Assembly: GCA_947074115.1 (NCBI GenBank)
Contig: CAMTOK010000013.1
Coordinates: 1 to 32,664 of the forward strand
DNA from: an uncultured Erysipelotrichaceae bacterium
GTDB taxonomy: Bacteria; Bacillota_I; Bacilli_A; Erysipelotrichales; Coprobacillaceae
DNA: 32,664 nt
Direction: 5' to 3'
Part shown: positions 11,386-27,146 of the stretch, in pieces
Layout of the letters: the number at the start of each line of letters is the position of its first letter
Numbering within the stretch: position 1 is the first letter of the stretch
Made by a program: the position numbers and the translations under genes
The notes under the pieces: model-generated
What the model was told of the DNA's origin: nothing
Database searches by the model: none
Seen by the model: only the letters and a program-made list of their open reading frames with translations

Positions 11386-11409
11386 GCAACCATGGAGGAA
11401 TGTGAAAAA

Positions 11410-12594
11410 ATGGATAAGAAAACAATCAAAGATATCGAAGTCGCTGGAAAAACAGTATTAGTTCGTGTTGACTTCAATGTACCAAGAAACAAAGAAACTG
11501 GAGAGATTACTAACGATAATAGAATCGTTGCTGCTCTTCCAACATTAAACTATTTATTAGAACAAAACCCTAAAGCTTTAGTATTATTCTCTCATTTAGG
11601 TAAAGTAAAAACTGAAGAAGATAAAGCTAAAAATGATTTAGCAGTTGTTGCTCCTAGATTAGCAGAATTATTAGGAAAAGACGTTCAATTCGTAAACTGT
11701 ACAAAAGGTGAAGAACTTGAAACTGCAGTTAAAAATGCAGATAATGGTCAAGTTATCTTAGTTCAAAATACACGTTATGAAGCTGGAGAAAGCAAAAATG
11801 ATCCTGAATTAGGAAAATATTGGGCTTCTTTAGGTGATGTATTTGTTGAAGATGCATTTGGTTCAGTTCATAGAGCTCATGCTTCTACAGCTGGAATTCC
11901 TGCTCATTTACCATCAGCAGCTGGATTCTTAGTAGAAAAAGAAATCGCTTATATCGGTAAAGCTGTTAATGATCCTGAAAGACCATTAGTTGCAATCTTA
12001 GGTGGAGCGAAAGTTTCTGACAAAATCGCAGTTATTGAAAACTTATTAAAAGTTGCTGATAAAGTTATCGTTGGTGGAGGTATGTGTTATACTTTCGCTA
12101 AAGCAATGGGTTATGAAATCGGAAACTCATTAGTTGAAGATGATAAAGTAGAATTAGCAAAATCATTTATTGATAAAGCTGAAGGTAAATTAATCTTACC
12201 AATCGATTCAATCTGTTCAGATAAATTCGGTGTAGACGGAGATATCAAAGAATGTGGTGAAAATGTACCAGAAGGTTACATGGGATTAGATATTGGACCT
12301 AAATCAGTTGAATTATTCACAAAAGCATTAGAAGGTGCTAAAACAGTTATCTGGAATGGACCAATGGGTGTATTCGAAATGGCTCCATTCGCTAATGGAA
12401 CAATCAAAGTTTGTGAAGCATTAGCTGCTTTAGATGGTGCTAACACAATTATCGGTGGTGGAGATAGTGCTGCTGCTGTTATGCAATTAGGATTTGCTGA
12501 TCAAGTTTCTCATATTTCAACTGGTGGTGGAGCATCATTAGAATATATGGAAGGTAAAGTTCTTCCAGGTATTGCTGCTATTGATGACAAATAA
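11410..12594 (+). CDS. pgk: Phosphoglycerate kinase
   Basis: It transfers phosphate from 1,3-bisphosphoglycerate to ADP in glycolysis. The 394-residue protein has the N-terminal signature [10 protein letters not shown], then LFSHLGK, the hinge region, and the nucleotide-binding C-terminal end GGGDSAAAV...[14 protein letters not shown] chose ATG 11410. An in-frame ATG at 11392 sits at the predicted transcription start and would bury the GGAGGA site (11394-11399). Codon use is strongly biased, as expected for a highly expressed gene. It is followed 12 bases later by tpiA. No gapA, eno or gpm is in the window. Confidence 0.96.
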
Positions 12595-20995: not shown

Positions 20996-21003
20996 TAACA
21001 ATG

Positions 21004-21029
21004 AAAAGAGCCTATAGGCTCTTTTTTTG
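21004..21029 (+). terminator. Terminator of adhE
   Basis: Arms AAAAGAGCC and GGCTCTTTT around TATA, followed by more T. Confidence 0.92.
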
Positions 21030-21101: not shown

Positions 21102-22067
21102 ATGAAGACATATTTAAAAACCCTTATTTTATTGTTTATCGTTACAAATATCTTATTTGTTTGTTTAGTAGGGATATCATCTCAATATATAAAAACTATT
21201 GAAGATGATTATAAAATAAGAAGTCAGAATGAAAATTTATTAATTCCTTCAATTCGAGGTTCTGCTATGGGATTAGATTATGTTCATACAATTGATATAT
21301 ATGATTCCGGCTATATCATTACATTTGGCGCATCAACATCTATACTGGGTATGCTTGAAGATGAGTTAAATACATCATTGATCTATCGGGATGCGTCAAG
21401 CGGTTCAGCATCAATACAATCTATGATGATCATGAAAAACTATTTAGAATTAAAAAATGAAGATATATTATCAACTTGTATTATTAAAGTTGATATCTCT
21501 CCAGTTATTTTTAAAGATGCTCATTATGAAAATGAAGTTATTACAAGTGCTTTGGAATATGCATCCATATATGATGTTCATGATGACCTCAGTGTAACAA
21601 GAAATATATTTTCTCCAATCTCACAGTTTTATGGAATGGGAACAAGATATATAGAAAAAGCATATGAATATTTTCGCGCAAAAAAAGATGGGAGTATAGA
21701 TGAACTCTTTTTACCTGCGATAGGTGATTGGAGTCAATACCACAGACAAATGACAATCACACAAACAAAAAAAGAAATGGTTATGTCTTTTATTACTGAT
21801 ATTCCTATAGACAATTGTATTGTGGATATACTTTATCAAAATAATGAACTCAAAGAAAGTCAAGCTGGGCTCAAGTTTAATGAGTATATAGATGATGAAT
21901 TGATTCCGTTTTTAAATGAGAATTATATTTCATTCATAGACAGTCGAGACAGTGTTGATTCCTCTTATTTTCTTGATAGTAATCATTTAAGTTATGAAGG
22001 TCGTGTTCTCTATACACGGTATATAGATAATGAATTAAAGAAAGTGTTTGGTGAAAGATATGAATGA
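21102..22067 (+). CDS. DltD-like membrane-anchored SGNH acyltransferase/esterase
   Basis: 321 residues from ATG 21102, with TAGGAG six bases upstream; an ATG at 21087 has no such site. The first 28 residues are a signal anchor, leaving the rest outside. The catalytic features are those of SGNH proteins: G76-A-S78 after a beta strand (ITFGAST) as the nucleophile motif, and D292-x-x-H295 (DSNHLSYEG) near the C-terminus. Size, topology and these positions match DltD, which takes the acyl group from the MBOAT/shuttle and passes it to teichoic acid. As first gene of the FkbH-ACP-MBOAT operon it is the likely final transferase onto a surface polymer. Overall similarity to DltD cannot be measured here. 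It could instead be an esterase that removes the group. Confidence 0.75.
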   Translation: MKTYLKTLILLFIVTNILFVCLVGISSQYIKTIEDDYKIRSQNENLLIPSIRGSAMGLDYVHTIDIYDSGYIITFGASTSILGMLEDELNTSLIYRDASSGSASIQSMMIMKNYLELKNEDILSTCIIKVDISPVIFKDAHYENEVITSALEYASIYDVHDDLSVTRNIFSPISQFYGMGTRYIEKAYEYFRAKKDGSIDELFLPAIGDWSQYHRQMTITQTKKEMVMSFITDIPIDNCIVDILYQNNELKESQAGLKFNEYIDDELIPFLNENYISFIDSRDSVDSSYFLDSNHLSYEGRVLYTRYIDNELKKVFGERYE

Positions 22068-23847
22068 ATTGATTAATGAAATCATTGAGGGGAGGTATCA
22101 TAATGACTTAAGGCATTATGATTATCTTGAATTGTTATCATTACATAAAAAGTTATGGAAAAGAAAACATGACTTAAAAGGTCAACCTATTAAAATCGCT
22201 ATTATTGGATCTAAAAGTATTCAATTGTTTGTGAAAACAATTGAGGTTCTCTTAATATCTCGTGGTTATTTACCTGAAATATATGAAGGGGAATATAATG
22301 GGATTATTTCTGAAATCATAAATGATGATTCAGATTTATATAAATTCTCTCCACAATATACAATTATTTTAACACATCATACAGACATACACACTTATCC
22401 ACCATTGTTGAGTTCTCATACAGAGCTCAAATCATGGATATCAGATCATACACGTTATTATCAACAGCTTCATGAGAAATTGGAATCATTGAACTGTTGT
22501 GTGATTCAAAGTTTATTTGTTGTTCCTGATATACAAGTGCTTAATCAATTAGAATCCAATGTTTTATATTCAGAAAATATGTTACTGAAGATGTTAAATA
22601 TTGAATTGGTTATGAATAAGAAACCATTTGTGCATTACATTGATTTGGATACTCTTGCATCATCAATTGGCAAGAGAAAATGGTTTGATCATAAAGGTTA
22701 TTATTTACATAAGGCACCCTTTGATTATGAATACTTACCAGATGTTGCTCATCTCTTTGTGAATCGAATTGATTCACTAGAAGGACGCATTAAAAAGTGT
22801 ATTGTTTTAGATCTAGACAATACGCTTTGGGGTGGTGTTATTGGTGATGAAGGTGCACAAGGTATTAATATTAATCAAAGTGACCCTATAGGGGAAGCTT
22901 ATCTCGATTTTCAAAAATATTTATTACAGTTAAAAGACCGAGGTATTGTTCTTACTATTTGTTCTAAAAATGATGAAGACAACGCTAAAAGTGCTTTTAT
23001 TGAGAATGAGAATATGATTTTAAAGTTAGATGACATAGCTGTTTTTAAAGCAAATTGGGATGATAAAGCCAGTAATATACAGTTGATTGCTGATGAATTA
23101 AATATTGGTGTTAATTCTCTTGTGTTTGTTGATGATAACCCTGCAGAAAGACAAATTGTACGCCAGTTCTTACCCACTGTTTGTGTGATTGAACTGGATG
23201 ATGATCCTGTTAACTACAAACAAAATGTGAATGATGCATTATGCTTTGATTGGCCTACGTTAACACGTGAAGATTTAAACCGTGTTGATACTTATAAAGA
23301 TAATGCAAGGCGTCTATCTATGAGTCAATCTTTTGTGAATTATGACGATTATTTAAAATCTTTAGAAATGGAAGCGTCACTAAAAGAGGTCACTCATGAT
23401 GATATTTCAAGGTATGTACAATTAACGAATAAATCAAATCAGTTTAATTTAAGAACGATGCGTCTACAAGAAAATCAAGTCTTAAGTATGCTTAAAGATG
23501 ATCATTACAAATTGTTGTATGTCACATTAAAAGATTGCTTTTCATCATTTGGAATCATTTCTTGCTTAATCTTAAAGAAAGATGGTGATATCTGTTTCAT
23601 TGAAAATTGGTTAATGAGTTGTCGTGTGTTAAAGCGTGATGTAGAAGTATACGTTTTAAATCAACTTGTTCTTATAGCGTCAAAATGGGGTTGTACACAA
23701 TTGGTTGGTGAATATATCCCAACAACAAAAAACAAAATGGTGGAAAACTTTTATCCATCATTAGGTTTTGTTCAAAATGGTCATCTTTATGAACTAAATC
23801 TTGATCACTATGAATCAAAAAAGACATATATAAAAGGAGATGTATAA
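22060..23847 (+). CDS. FkbH-like HAD-IIIC protein, predicted to load glyceryl onto the ACP
   Basis: 595 residues from ATG 22060, overlapping the previous stop by eight bases, with GGTGA close upstream. There are three parts. The N-terminal FkbH-type alpha/beta domain (to about 235) includes IAIIGSKSIQLFVKTIEVLL. The HAD-IIIC phosphatase domain has the nucleophile motif D251-L-D253-NTLWGGVIGDEG, SKND and FVDDNPAER. A C-terminal GNAT-like domain runs from about residue 410, with TNKSNQFNLRT typical of FkbH. Characterised FkbH-like proteins bind 1,3-bisphosphoglycerate, remove phosphate and form glyceryl-S-ACP, mainly for polyketides. Here the next gene is an ACP and no polyketide synthase is present. 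I infer that it takes the place of DltA and supplies glyceryl, or a close hydroxyacyl, for export. Confidence 0.88.
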   Translation: MNELINEIIEGRYHNDLRHYDYLELLSLHKKLWKRKHDLKGQPIKIAIIGSKSIQLFVKTIEVLLISRGYLPEIYEGEYNGIISEIINDDSDLYKFSPQYTIILTHHTDIHTYPPLLSSHTELKSWISDHTRYYQQLHEKLESLNCCVIQSLFVVPDIQVLNQLESNVLYSENMLLKMLNIELVMNKKPFVHYIDLDTLASSIGKRKWFDHKGYYLHKAPFDYEYLPDVAHLFVNRIDSLEGRIKKCIVLDLDNTLWGGVIGDEGAQGININQSDPIGEAYLDFQKYLLQLKDRGIVLTICSKNDEDNAKSAFIENENMILKLDDIAVFKANWDDKASNIQLIADELNIGVNSLVFVDDNPAERQIVRQFLPTVCVIELDDDPVNYKQNVNDALCFDWPTLTREDLNRVDTYKDNARRLSMSQSFVNYDDYLKSLEMEASLKEVTHDDISRYVQLTNKSNQFNLRTMRLQENQVLSMLKDDHYKLLYVTLKDCFSSFGIISCLILKKDGDICFIENWLMSCRVLKRDVEVYVLNQLVLIASKWGCTQLVGEYIPTTKNKMVENFYPSLGFVQNGHLYELNLDHYESKKTYIKGDV

Positions 23848-23848
23848 A

Positions 23849-24082
23849 ATGGATTTAAGAGCAGAATTACAAGCATTGTTTCAAGATTTCTTTGAAGATG
23901 AAGATCTTATCTTAGAAGATCATTTGACTGCAGAAGATATTGAAGATTGGGATTCACTAGCACATATAGGTTTAATCGCAACGATTGAAAAGAAATACAA
24001 CATTAAGTTTGCGACTGCGGAAATTTCAAGGTTAAAGAATGTTGGTGAGCTCATTTCACTAACAAAGAAAGCATTAGAATAA
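23849..24082 (+). CDS. Acyl carrier protein (DltC/FkbJ-like)
   Basis: 77 residues from ATG 23849, nine bases after AAAGGAG; an ATG at 23840 lies too close to the ribosome binding site. It is an acidic four-helix ACP with S36 in W-D-S-L as the phosphopantetheine attachment site. Its position between the FkbH-like gene and the MBOAT fits a carrier that holds the acyl thioester on the cytoplasmic side and presents it to the MBOAT, as DltC does. No phosphopantetheinyl transferase is nearby, so the cell's AcpS would have to activate it. Confidence 0.92.
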   Translation: MDLRAELQALFQDFFEDEDLILEDHLTAEDIEDWDSLAHIGLIATIEKKYNIKFATAEISRLKNVGELISLTKKALE

Positions 24083-24085
24083 AAC

Positions 24086-25246
24086 ATGACAATCAATTCA
24101 TTATTATTTATTCTAGCATTACTTTTAACGCCTTTTGTATTAAGAGTCAATAAACCATACAAAAAGTTAATCTTCTTAATCTTAAATATTATCATTTTTA
24201 TATTATCAACAGGTTCTTTACAATCATTAATTGTATCATTTTTGTTTATTATGATTCCTTATATATATTGTCATTATTTTAAAAAGAAGTGGCCATTATT
24301 TATTGTATTGAGTCTTTCATTTATCTACTTTAATCAATATGGATGGATCTTTAATACTTTAAGAATTCCAATGTTGCTTTCAATTCAAGTCTTTGGTTTG
24401 TCTTATATCGTATTTAGGATCACTGATTTTGTGATTAACTATGACTATATAGATCAAAAGAAAAGAACATTAGTAAATTACCTTAATTATCTCTTATCTT
24501 TCTATACTATTATTTGTGGTCCAATTATGCAGTTTGAGGAATTTTGTGATAGTTTTCATAATGCAGGTAAAATTCCTCATGATAAAAATGATATTTATAG
24601 ATTAATCAATAGAATTGTTAATGGTTATATAAAGGTAATGATTATTTCGTATTTTTGTTATCATGTCGCTTCGCTCATGTTCGATTCTATGCGAAGTGGG
24701 ATAACACTCGTTCATTTTGTCATCTTTGCGATTGCTAATGTATGGTACATCTATTTTAATTTCTCTGGTTATTGCGATATTGTGATTGGCAGTGGTGCGC
24801 TTGCAGGATTGTACATCCCTGAAAATTTCAATAAACCTTATTTAGCGAGGGATATGAGTGATTTTTGGACAAGACAGCATATTACATTAACAAGGTTTAT
24901 TACCAATTATATTTTTACACCAGTGGTAAAGACCATGGTCAATCATTTTGGTGTAGAAAGAATAGACTTATGTCAGTACGTAGGCTTCTTTATTGCCTTT
25001 TTTATCGCAGGTGTCTGGCATGGAACGACTGTGAGTTTTATCTATTATGGTATAGCACAAGCCATAGGGGTATGTTTAACGAAATTTTATAAAAGTTATA
25101 TGTTAAAGAAATTAGGGAGTAAAAAAGCCTTTAAAGCTTATCAAGCTAAAAAAAGTGTTTATATTTGTGAAGTGATTTGTACACAAATATTTGTTTATTT
25201 GTCTTTTGTATTTATTGTATTTGATTTTGCAAGTTTAATGTTTTAG
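24086..25246 (+). CDS. MBOAT acyltransferase (DltB-like)
   Basis: 386 residues, hydrophobic throughout with roughly ten or more spans, the size of DltB. MBOAT features are CGPIMQFEEF near residue 147, DFWTRQHITLTRFITNYIF (258-276, with H265), and the catalytic-channel histidine H312 in FIAGVWHGTTVSF. DltB-type proteins take an acyl group from the cytoplasmic carrier through a membrane funnel and place it on an acceptor on the outer face. The C-terminus ends in hydrophobic residues without a tyrosine shuttle motif; that motif is instead on the next, very small gene. The start is three bases after the ACP stop without a strong ribosome binding site, so translation is probably coupled. Confidence 0.93.
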   Translation: MTINSLLFILALLLTPFVLRVNKPYKKLIFLILNIIIFILSTGSLQSLIVSFLFIMIPYIYCHYFKKKWPLFIVLSLSFIYFNQYGWIFNTLRIPMLLSIQVFGLSYIVFRITDFVINYDYIDQKKRTLVNYLNYLLSFYTIICGPIMQFEEFCDSFHNAGKIPHDKNDIYRLINRIVNGYIKVMIISYFCYHVASLMFDSMRSGITLVHFVIFAIANVWYIYFNFSGYCDIVIGSGALAGLYIPENFNKPYLARDMSDFWTRQHITLTRFITNYIFTPVVKTMVNHFGVERIDLCQYVGFFIAFFIAGVWHGTTVSFIYYGIAQAIGVCLTKFYKSYMLKKLGSKKAFKAYQAKKSVYICEVICTQIFVYLSFVFIVFDFASLMF

Positions 25247-25255
25247 GAGGTCATC

Positions 25256-25375
25256 ATGAAAATAACACGAAGAAATGAATGGTTTATGATTCTTTATTTG
25301 AGTATTAAGATCATTATTGTGATGATTGCTTGTTACGTTTTAGGAAGTACATTGGTACTTTATCAAGGATTCTAG
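25256..25375 (+). CDS. 39-residue DltX-like acyl-shuttle microprotein
   Basis: ATG 25256 lies five bases after a perfect AGGAGG (25245-25250) that overlaps the MBOAT stop; the gene ends at TAG 25373-25375. The protein has a basic N-terminus (K2, R5, R6), one membrane span (about residues 9-33) and a C-terminus outside by the positive-inside rule. It ends V34-L-Y36-Q-G-F39. In the Dlt pathway the microprotein DltX ends F-I-Y-N-E-F. Its tyrosine accepts D-alanine from DltB and passes it to DltD. Here the tyrosine and the final phenylalanine are in the same positions from the end, with a hydrophobic residue before the tyrosine. Position, size, topology and motif all agree; function is inferred. 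Confidence 0.8.
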   Translation: MKITRRNEWFMILYLSIKIIIVMIACYVLGSTLVLYQGF

Positions 25376-25387
25376 GAGGATATGAAA

Positions 25388-25852
25388 ATGAAAAAATTAG
25401 TTTTGGCTTTAGTTATGAGTTTAATGATAGTGGGGTGTTCTCAAAATAAAGAAACACCGGATTTATCACTCACAATGGATGACTTTATGTTTGAAGGATA
25501 TAAACCTAATGACCAGTTTACTGGCAGTGAACTTGGTGACAACTATCAATACAGTGAATCAGAAAGTTGTGGTTTTACAGGGTTAGATAAATTCTATTCT
25601 TATGATTATTATGATATAGGAACTTATCCAAATGGTGATGTTGATCATATTCTTTATATTGATTTGTATGAAAATCAACAAACAGCCAGAGGGATTTCTA
25701 TAGGAAATACTAAGGATGATGTGATTAACGCTTATGGTGAAGATTATACTCAAGAGGGAGATTACTACGTCTATACAATGGATAAAATGTTATTAAAATT
25801 CTTGATCATTAATGATGCGGTTGGCGGTATTCAAATGACATATGATGCATAA
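25388..25852 (+). CDS. Small lipoprotein, seventh-operon accessory
   Basis: 154 residues from ATG 25388, eight bases after AGGAGG (25374-25379), which itself overlaps the microprotein stop; an ATG at 25382 is too close to the site. A lipobox ending MIVGC puts the mature protein on the outer face of the membrane. The C-terminal half has ARGISIGNTKDDVINAYGEDY, a pattern shared with small repeat-type lipoprotein domains resembling BamE/SmpA folds. No function can be assigned. Tight spacing makes it part of the acyl-transfer operon, so it may help recognise the polymer or the wall. Confidence 0.78.
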   Translation: MKKLVLALVMSLMIVGCSQNKETPDLSLTMDDFMFEGYKPNDQFTGSELGDNYQYSESESCGFTGLDKFYSYDYYDIGTYPNGDVDHILYIDLYENQQTARGISIGNTKDDVINAYGEDYTQEGDYYVYTMDKMLLKFLIINDAVGGIQMTYDA

Positions 25853-27116
25853 CAATCAATTAAAACAATTTATTAAAGAATATAAGTATTATCTTTGTGC
25901 ATTTGTATTGGTTGTCATTGTCTATTTTATATATTTTCAAATGAGGACAGTCATTTATAAAGAAGTGATTTGGGAACTCGGTGTGCCCTTTGAAGACGTG
26001 AATGAGGTTTTGGTGAAAAATCCGACGTCTCAAACAAAAATATTATCCCCTTTAGAGAGTGTCGATAGTGATCAGGTAGGTGATTACAATATTCAGATTT
26101 CTCATAAAGGAAGATTGTATGATTGCGTTGTTAAAGTCAGGGATACGCAGGCACCAAAGGCGAAAGTCAAAGAAAAGACAATAGTCATCAATACGATATT
26201 AAATCCTTATACACTGATTTATGATATAGAGGAAGCTTCATCACTAACAATTGAGTTTGATAAGGCATATGTATTTGATAAAGAGAAAACGTATTCTGTG
26301 AGAATAATATTAACAGATGAATATCAAAACAAAACAATATTAAAGACAAAGGTTCACGTTATTGATGACCAAGAGAGTCCAGAAGTCATTGAGAATCCAA
26401 CGCTTTATATTTCTAGAGGTGCAGAGGATATAGATTATCTTGAGGGTCTTGTGTTAGAAGATAATGTGTGTGATCAAGATGATATACGCATATCAATTCA
26501 TGATCAAGCAGTCGATGCCTCATCTTTTGGTGAGTATACAGTGACACTAAAAGTAGAAGATACGGCAGGAAATGTCCGATATGTAAAAAGACAAGTAGAA
26601 GTGACAATTATGGCCCTTGTTGAAACAAACCTTGTCTTAGAACAAATGAGTCCTGAATTATCAGATTCATTAGACCGTGTATTGGAGGATTTAATTCACG
26701 ATGATATGAGTGAACGTCAAAAATTAAGGGCAGTTTATGATTGGTGTTTAACTTTACGCTATCAAAATAATGGTGAACAAGATTATTTAGAGAATTACTA
26801 TCAAAACATGGAATCGTATGCTTCCTATATATTAAGTCGAAGGACAGGACATTGTTTTCATTATGCTGCGATACAAACGTATATGATACATAAATTAGGT
26901 CTACCCGTCTTTTTAATTAAGGGAGAAGGAATAAATACTGCATTAAATTATGAACTTCATTTTTGGAGTGTTGTTCAATTAAATGGGACATGGTATCATT
27001 TTGATCCTTTATATGAACAACTCTTTCTATACAACAAACAATTCTTCTTATCAACGTCATCTTCAATTTATAATGTAACGCATAGATGGGATAAAACACT
27101 TTATCCAGGAATATAA
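25842..27116 (+). CDS. Membrane-anchored Ig-like/transglutaminase-core protein
   Basis: 424 residues. A cytoplasmic N-terminus and one span (about 16-34) are followed by two bacterial Ig-like regions, with DTQAPKAKV at 101-109 and DDQESPEVIENP at 175-186 as boundaries. A transglutaminase-like domain runs from about 290. The cysteine-protease type triad is complete: C338 (RTGHCFHYAA), H373 (ELHFWSVVQ) and D388 (WYHFDP). Such extracellular domains act as peptidases, amidases or crosslinking enzymes in the cell wall; the substrate is unknown. The start overlaps the lipoprotein stop by 11 bases (ATGATG, either codon possible). It is last in the operon and converges with a class A PBP gene. Confidence 0.87.
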   Translation: MMHNNQLKQFIKEYKYYLCAFVLVVIVYFIYFQMRTVIYKEVIWELGVPFEDVNEVLVKNPTSQTKILSPLESVDSDQVGDYNIQISHKGRLYDCVVKVRDTQAPKAKVKEKTIVINTILNPYTLIYDIEEASSLTIEFDKAYVFDKEKTYSVRIILTDEYQNKTILKTKVHVIDDQESPEVIENPTLYISRGAEDIDYLEGLVLEDNVCDQDDIRISIHDQAVDASSFGEYTVTLKVEDTAGNVRYVKRQVEVTIMALVETNLVLEQMSPELSDSLDRVLEDLIHDDMSERQKLRAVYDWCLTLRYQNNGEQDYLENYYQNMESYASYILSRRTGHCFHYAAIQTYMIHKLGLPVFLIKGEGINTALNYELHFWSVVQLNGTWYHFDPLYEQLFLYNKQFFLSTSSSIYNVTHRWDKTLYPGI

Positions 27117-27146
27117 AAATACACATCATTGATGTGTATTTTTTAT
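27115..27146. terminator. Bidirectional terminator between the envelope operon and the PBP gene
   Basis: Arms ATACACATC and GATGTGTAT around ATT have A and T runs on the two sides. It lies between the stops of two convergent genes. Confidence 0.9.

Follow-up and report, generated by a model that had tools for sequence, protein, structure and literature searches.

What does an operon built like a Dlt system accomplish when an FkbH protein, and not DltA, stands at its loading step? The question is raised by a stretch of 32,664 nt (hereafter the window) that spans positions 1 to 32,664 of contig CAMTOK010000013.1 of assembly GCA_947074115.1, from an uncultured Erysipelotrichaceae bacterium. Judging from sequence and from analogy with characterized systems, we consider that the locus probably encodes a second Dlt-like envelope acylation line of this cell, in which glyceryl loaded by FkbH onto an acyl carrier protein (ACP) would be exported by way of an MBOAT, a tyrosine peptide and an SGNH-like protein to a surface polymer.

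The seven-gene operon and its conservation

A sequence-only reading of this DNA had described a complete export line of five genes. All five open reading frames were confirmed at the same coordinates, closely packed on one strand, and the Dlt logic with an FkbH/ACP loader and a DltX-like peptide was upheld, but the set is not complete with five, as the lipoprotein and Ig-transglutaminase genes that follow had been overlooked. The operon, flanked on both sides by terminator-like hairpins, covers positions 21102 to 27116 of the window:

21003–21026, + strand: terminator-like hairpin 5' of the operon, after adhE; 10-pair stem followed by a T run
21102–22067, + strand: predicted SGNH-like acyltransferase and DltD analogue with Ser78, Asp292 and His295; membrane helix at the N-terminus
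22060–23847, + strand: FkbH protein; FkbH_N and HAD domains, the latter with DLD, and a C-terminal domain in which Cys521 is invariant
23849–24082, + strand: ACP; phosphopantetheine serine in WDSL
24086–25246, + strand: DltB-like MBOAT of 386 aa; conserved His265 and His312, shuttle helix absent from the C-terminus
25256–25375, + strand: one-span microprotein of 39 aa, predicted DltX-like shuttle; C-terminal VLYQGF
25382–25852, + strand: lipoprotein; lipobox IVGC, recurs near MBOAT-SGNH modules
25842–27116, + strand: membrane-anchored Ig-like and transglutaminase-like protein; Cys338, His373 and Asp388 conserved
27115–27143, + strand: terminator-like hairpin at the 3' end of the operon; 13-pair stem followed by a T run

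The SGNH and fkbH genes overlap by 8 bases and the lipoprotein and transglutaminase genes by 11, and the remaining gaps measure 1 base (fkbH–ACP), 3 (ACP–MBOAT), 9 (MBOAT–microprotein) and 6 (microprotein–lipoprotein). This tight spacing, together with the hairpins at both ends, indicates that the natural unit is seven genes, not five; terminator-like sites numbered 4, against 1.7 expected from shuffles. A gene for phosphoglycerate kinase, an enzyme that uses 1,3-bisphosphoglycerate, is found 8.5 kb upstream (11392–12594), a proximity that is probably a coincidence.

The gene set recurs, as seven genes, in a genus of the sister family: three of its genomes (G052, G059 and G300; loci L021, L022 and L049) have an identical gene order, and the set appears as well under L025 and L027, which are MAG records named Erysipelotrichaceae, and under L023, an uncultured bin. 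Identities to the window range from 32 to 51% over the whole set (FkbH 46–50%, MBOAT 43–44%, SGNH 33–36%, microprotein 49–51%, lipoprotein 35–36%, transglutaminase protein 32–33%). The genes flanking the operon differ between the window and the sister-family genus, and the order conserved across genomes rules out chance gene neighbors. In the copy represented by L021 and L027 the fkbH frame is split into two overlapping open reading frames (L021, 8381–10164), while it is intact in related records. FkbH itself was found in 15/316 genomes of the order, and the operon only in the window and the three sister-family genomes. The other FkbH genes of the order that could be placed belong mostly to FkbH-ACP-MaoC sets in CMP-nonulosonate-type or other glycan clusters. 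In eight loci (L050, L052–L055 and L057–L059) such a set adjoins NeuB/NeuC-like and nucleotidyltransferase genes, where it may perhaps supply the N-acyl group of a nonulosonic acid.

The predicted loader pair and the probable acyl group

The family identity of the FkbH protein is firm, given scores of 285.2 bits against TIGR01686 of NCBIfam (cut-off 146.65) and 52.8 bits against FkbH_N of Pfam (PF21211; cut-off 27), and a match to the solved relative 3slr at 5.5e-82. Comparison of 17 FkbH proteins drawn from several phyla leaves 54 invariant positions; the HAD-site aspartates D251 and D253 are among them, as are K336, D358 and C521, and the HAD residues needed for dephosphorylation are retained in the window protein. 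The ACP scores 20.0 bits against PF00550, slightly below the 20.8 cut-off, with the serine of the DSL motif present. It shares 35–43% identity with FkbH-partner ACPs versus 15% with the genome's own DltC-like ACP, and its 14.6 bits against the DltC model (cut-off 68) place it outside that family. By sequence, therefore, it resembles the FkbH-partner type and not the DltC type. The seven genes include neither an AMP-binding gene or DltA ligase nor a dehydrogenase, methyltransferase, FabH, MaoC or SDR able to alter glyceryl-ACP.

Glyceryl is the group loaded by characterized FkbH proteins (PMC3679948, PMC8949500), which, together with the retained dephosphorylation residues and the lack of a modifying enzyme in the operon, argues against the alternative that the same line loads or delivers a different small acid (lactyl, phosphoglyceryl or another hydroxyacyl), so that the ester would not be a glycerate. 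This alternative draws on the fact that FkbH specificity is not readable from sequence here, and on FkbH sets elsewhere that bear extra enzymes: four Lachnospiraceae loci (L029–L031 and L036) are arranged MBOAT-SGNH-FkbH-ACP-MaoC-SDR inside glycosyltransferase clusters, with an MBOAT ending in FAYYVF, and there MaoC and SDR could dehydrate and reduce glyceryl-ACP to lactyl-ACP. For the window we regard a different acid as unlikely, and glyceryl as the probable cargo.

It has also to be asked whether glyceryl-ACP enters a secreted secondary metabolite or glycolipid that is acylated by the MBOAT, since aeruginosin-type clusters such as that of suomilide hold both FkbH and MBOAT genes (PMC10143770). 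The unit has no PKS, NRPS, FabH or tailoring genes, its shuttle microprotein, SGNH-like protein and lipoprotein indicate a site of action outside the membrane, and its relatives adjoin capsule or glycan genes; we thus hold a small-molecule pathway to be very improbable indeed. A secondary-metabolite cluster was rejected, as no such genes surround the operon; the sequence-only reading had counted a constant placement of homologous operons in such clusters among the findings that would overturn it.

Its further proposal that FkbH replaces DltA does not hold in this cell. A separate operon on contig C14 retains a DltA-type ligase, together with a DltC-like ACP, an MBOAT and an SGNH-like gene, and FkbH would therefore feed a second, parallel line and not substitute for DltA. 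The two operons follow the same logic in the same cell, but that on C14 differs from the window in its AMP-forming ligase, its DltC-like ACP and its MBOAT of 526 aa, to which the shuttle motif is fused as a terminal FIYATF (L019, 10289–11869). A third MBOAT, ending in FLYFRF, is encoded on contig C99, and the genome also encodes an LtaS-like protein (93 bits, below its cut-off).

The proposed export relay and its accessory pair

Membership of the window MBOAT in its fold family is clear (51.9 bits against PF03062, cut-off 27), and it matches solved DltB at 3e-21 as a single sequence and at 4e-38 as a profile, with the invariant His265 and His312 aligned to the DltB histidines; its 147.6 bits against the DltB equivalog TIGR04091 fall short of the cut-off of 375. 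Two C-terminal helices, which in other bacterial MBOATs bear the shuttle motif, are absent from it, as they are from DltB. This acyl-tyrosine shuttle motif, FXYXXF, is located either on DltX or, by fusion, on the MBOAT itself (PMC12148441). The 39-aa microprotein ends in VLYQGF, compared with FIYNEF in Listeria DltX, and so fits the motif with one deviation, V for F at the first position; the VLYQGF end is conserved in four sequences. It is thus predicted to provide the shuttle helix that is missing from the MBOAT. Its assignment to the Pfam DltX family was unsupported, since the model (PF12459) does not detect it: no match at E 0.001 was obtained in its own genome, microprotein included, nor any in 120 genomes of the phylum, and a microprotein profile gave no useful match to solved structures.

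The product of 21102–22067 is likely to be an SGNH protein, as suggested by its motifs and by a structure model. Ser78 lies in FGAST, and Asp292 and His295 in FLDSNHLSYEG near the C-terminus, a region that nearly matches FLEDPIHLSWRG of Listeria DltD; all three residues are invariant within the operon family. No significant match was found in Pfam or NCBIfam, which leaves the protein outside the DltD family, and neither profile comparison with the other SGNH partners nor a profile search of solved structures gave a significant or useful match. Two AlphaFold models reached a pLDDT of only 55–56, for which reason their residue geometry was left unused. In a fold search of the PDB with the low-confidence model of the domain alone, GDSL/SGNH hydrolases, DltD (6pfx, 7dxm) and PatB (7tjb) were among the top matches, none of them below E 0.001.

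From the known behavior of these families, a three-step route can be proposed. FkbH would dephosphorylate 1,3-bisphosphoglycerate and attach glyceryl to the ACP through its phosphopantetheine arm, as in the mechanism described for the family (PMC3679948, PMC7489565). By analogy with DltB and DltX, the MBOAT would then move glyceryl across the membrane onto the tyrosine of the LYQGF end of the microprotein. The SGNH-like protein, as DltD and PatB do, would accept it on Ser78 and pass it on to a surface polymer, where it would form a glycerate ester with a hydroxyl, while the lipoprotein and the Ig-transglutaminase protein would be putative accessories outside the membrane. Glyceryl esters do exist on bacterial polysaccharides, since native gellan bears them.

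Another destination is suggested by the Ig-like and transglutaminase-like domains that the conserved operon encodes: the acceptor of the acyl group could be a surface protein or lipoprotein, and not a glycopolymer, with the SGNH-like protein, lipoprotein and transglutaminase directing the transfer. The wider distribution of the pair bears on this point. In 311 genomes of the order, lipoprotein homologues also occur outside FkbH operons, and an MBOAT gene lies close to the lipoprotein gene in 10 of the 11 judgeable loci (strong matches, not cut at a contig end). The lipoprotein accompanies a DltA-type ligase and MBOAT in L088, L089 and L099, and MBOAT-SGNH-type genes alone in L087, L092 and L095–L098; L093 has it with MBOAT-SGNH on a cut contig, and in the exception, L094, a transglutaminase gene adjoins it. 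Transglutaminase relatives were found in L087, L088 and L094–L099, and between the window and L088 the lipoproteins are 36% identical (2e-30) and the transglutaminase proteins 26% (3e-41). Because the pair is present with differing loaders, it appears to track the export relay and not the acyl group. Its presence with DltA-type and ligase-free MBOAT-SGNH modules means that it is not tied to glyceryl, and the MBOAT-SGNH acceptors known so far are polymers (PMC12148441), so that a protein acceptor seems very unlikely and a surface polymer remains the destination we favor.

Throughout the Erysipelotrichales loci (window 25382–27116; L087–L089 and L092–L099), the lipoprotein/Ig-transglutaminase pair recurs next to MBOAT-SGNH modules whose acyl loaders are of three kinds. 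In two of the MBOAT-SGNH-lipoprotein operons, a gene of the Asp/Glu/hydantoin racemase family lies immediately 5' of the DltA-like ligase gene (L088, 12107–12817; L089, 2120–2875), a hint that the D-amino acid loaded there may not be alanine.

Recurrence, origins and relation to known systems

The combination of FkbH, ACP and MBOAT recurs in Lachnospiraceae, Bacteroidota and Alphaproteobacteria, with an SGNH-like partner in most cases and with the shuttle motif fused. A Bacteroidota MAG (L034) has the order FkbH-ACP-MBOAT-SGNH and an MBOAT ending in FIYFQF. The sets of Sinorhizobium meliloti, Rhodobacteraceae SC52 and Tistrella mobilis were found by tblastn of plasmids. On pSymB of S. meliloti (L105), genes for an MBOAT ending in FLYQGF, a 409-aa protein, the ACP and FkbH are followed by capsule export genes; this MBOAT has Asn at the position of the first conserved His of DltB. 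The FkbH is contained in 40 Sinorhizobium records, its gene being split into two overlapping open reading frames in strain 1021 (L111, 8206–10268) and a single frame in 2011. We infer that these genes fall within or adjoin SMb20823–SMb20841, a capsular biosynthesis and export region (PMC4468178); the literature on SMb20840/20841 gives a region-level capsule annotation and nothing finer. The LYQGF end is common to the S. meliloti MBOAT (L105, 6258) and the window microprotein (25372), and among the MBOATs and shuttle peptides examined, which are few, S. meliloti alone has it outside the seven-gene operon family. SC52 has the order ACP-FkbH-MBOAT-358-aa protein, the MBOAT ending in FIYFNF, and in T. 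mobilis an MBOAT (FIYAGF) and a 340-aa protein are divergent from ACP, methyltransferase and FkbH genes; a pattern search of the SC52 and Tistrella partner proteins for SGNH histidine motifs gave no clear match.

On the FkbH tree, linkage to an MBOAT takes four changes, at least three of them on well-supported branches, which indicates that this linkage was gained or lost repeatedly; the nearest relatives of the window FkbH outside the seven-gene operon lack an MBOAT. The MBOAT tree joins the window group to true DltB (95/98), a join that may be false as both branches are long. Approximately unbiased tests rejected trees in which the window MBOATs group with the fused MBOATs of the DltA type (p-AU 0.007), trees in which they group with the remaining FkbH-linked MBOATs (p-AU 0.0003), and trees that make those remaining FkbH-linked MBOATs one clade (p-AU 0.0004); a single origin of all FkbH-linked MBOATs is thereby rejected. 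Taken together, the trees and tests indicate that loader and exporter were joined more than once.

With the Dlt system (DltA/B/C/X/D) the operon shares a carrier-bound acyl donor, a short DltB-like MBOAT, a separate one-span tyrosine peptide and an SGNH-like partner in which the spacing around D-x-x-H-L-S-x-x-G is like that of DltD. It differs in having FkbH as loader in place of DltA, an ACP that is not DltC-like, a microprotein and an SGNH protein outside the Pfam families, an added lipoprotein and transglutaminase, and another gene order. The PatA/PatB and AlgI/AlgJ/AlgX systems likewise pair an MBOAT and an SGNH protein with an acyl-tyrosine shuttle motif, but theirs is fused to the MBOAT and PatA uses acyl-CoA (PMC12148441), whereas in the window the shuttle is predicted to be a separate peptide and the donor an ACP. 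Polyketide, tetronate and NRPS clusters that load glyceryl-ACP also combine FkbH with a free-standing ACP; unlike them, the window has no PKS, NRPS, oxidation or methylation genes, and its predicted product is an exported ester. The open literature, to which our search was confined, contained no account of FkbH feeding an MBOAT-SGNH line. The components themselves are known; what appears to be new is that they are found combined, and repeatedly so, together with the split shuttle and the accessory pair.

The chances seem to us evenly balanced that FkbH-fed export constitutes a distinct class of envelope acylation with several origins, in which activated 1,3-bisphosphoglycerate replaces an ATP-spending ligase, glycerate reaches surface polymers through the MBOAT-tyrosine-SGNH relay, and the relay of Erysipelotrichales shares a lipoprotein/transglutaminase pair whatever its loader. 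If so, the acylation machine would be modular, one relay accepting acyl groups from acyl-CoA, from an amino-acid ligase or from an FkbH enzyme coupled to glycolysis. The operon would also provide a second example of a shuttle microprotein that, like DltX, is a separate peptide, to be set against the statement that such microproteins are absent from other MBOAT pathways (PMC12148441). The set in S. meliloti makes the hypothesis testable in a model organism. For the bacteria that carry them, these genes would be a genetic source of surface glycerate esters and would tie surface chemistry to glycolytic flux.
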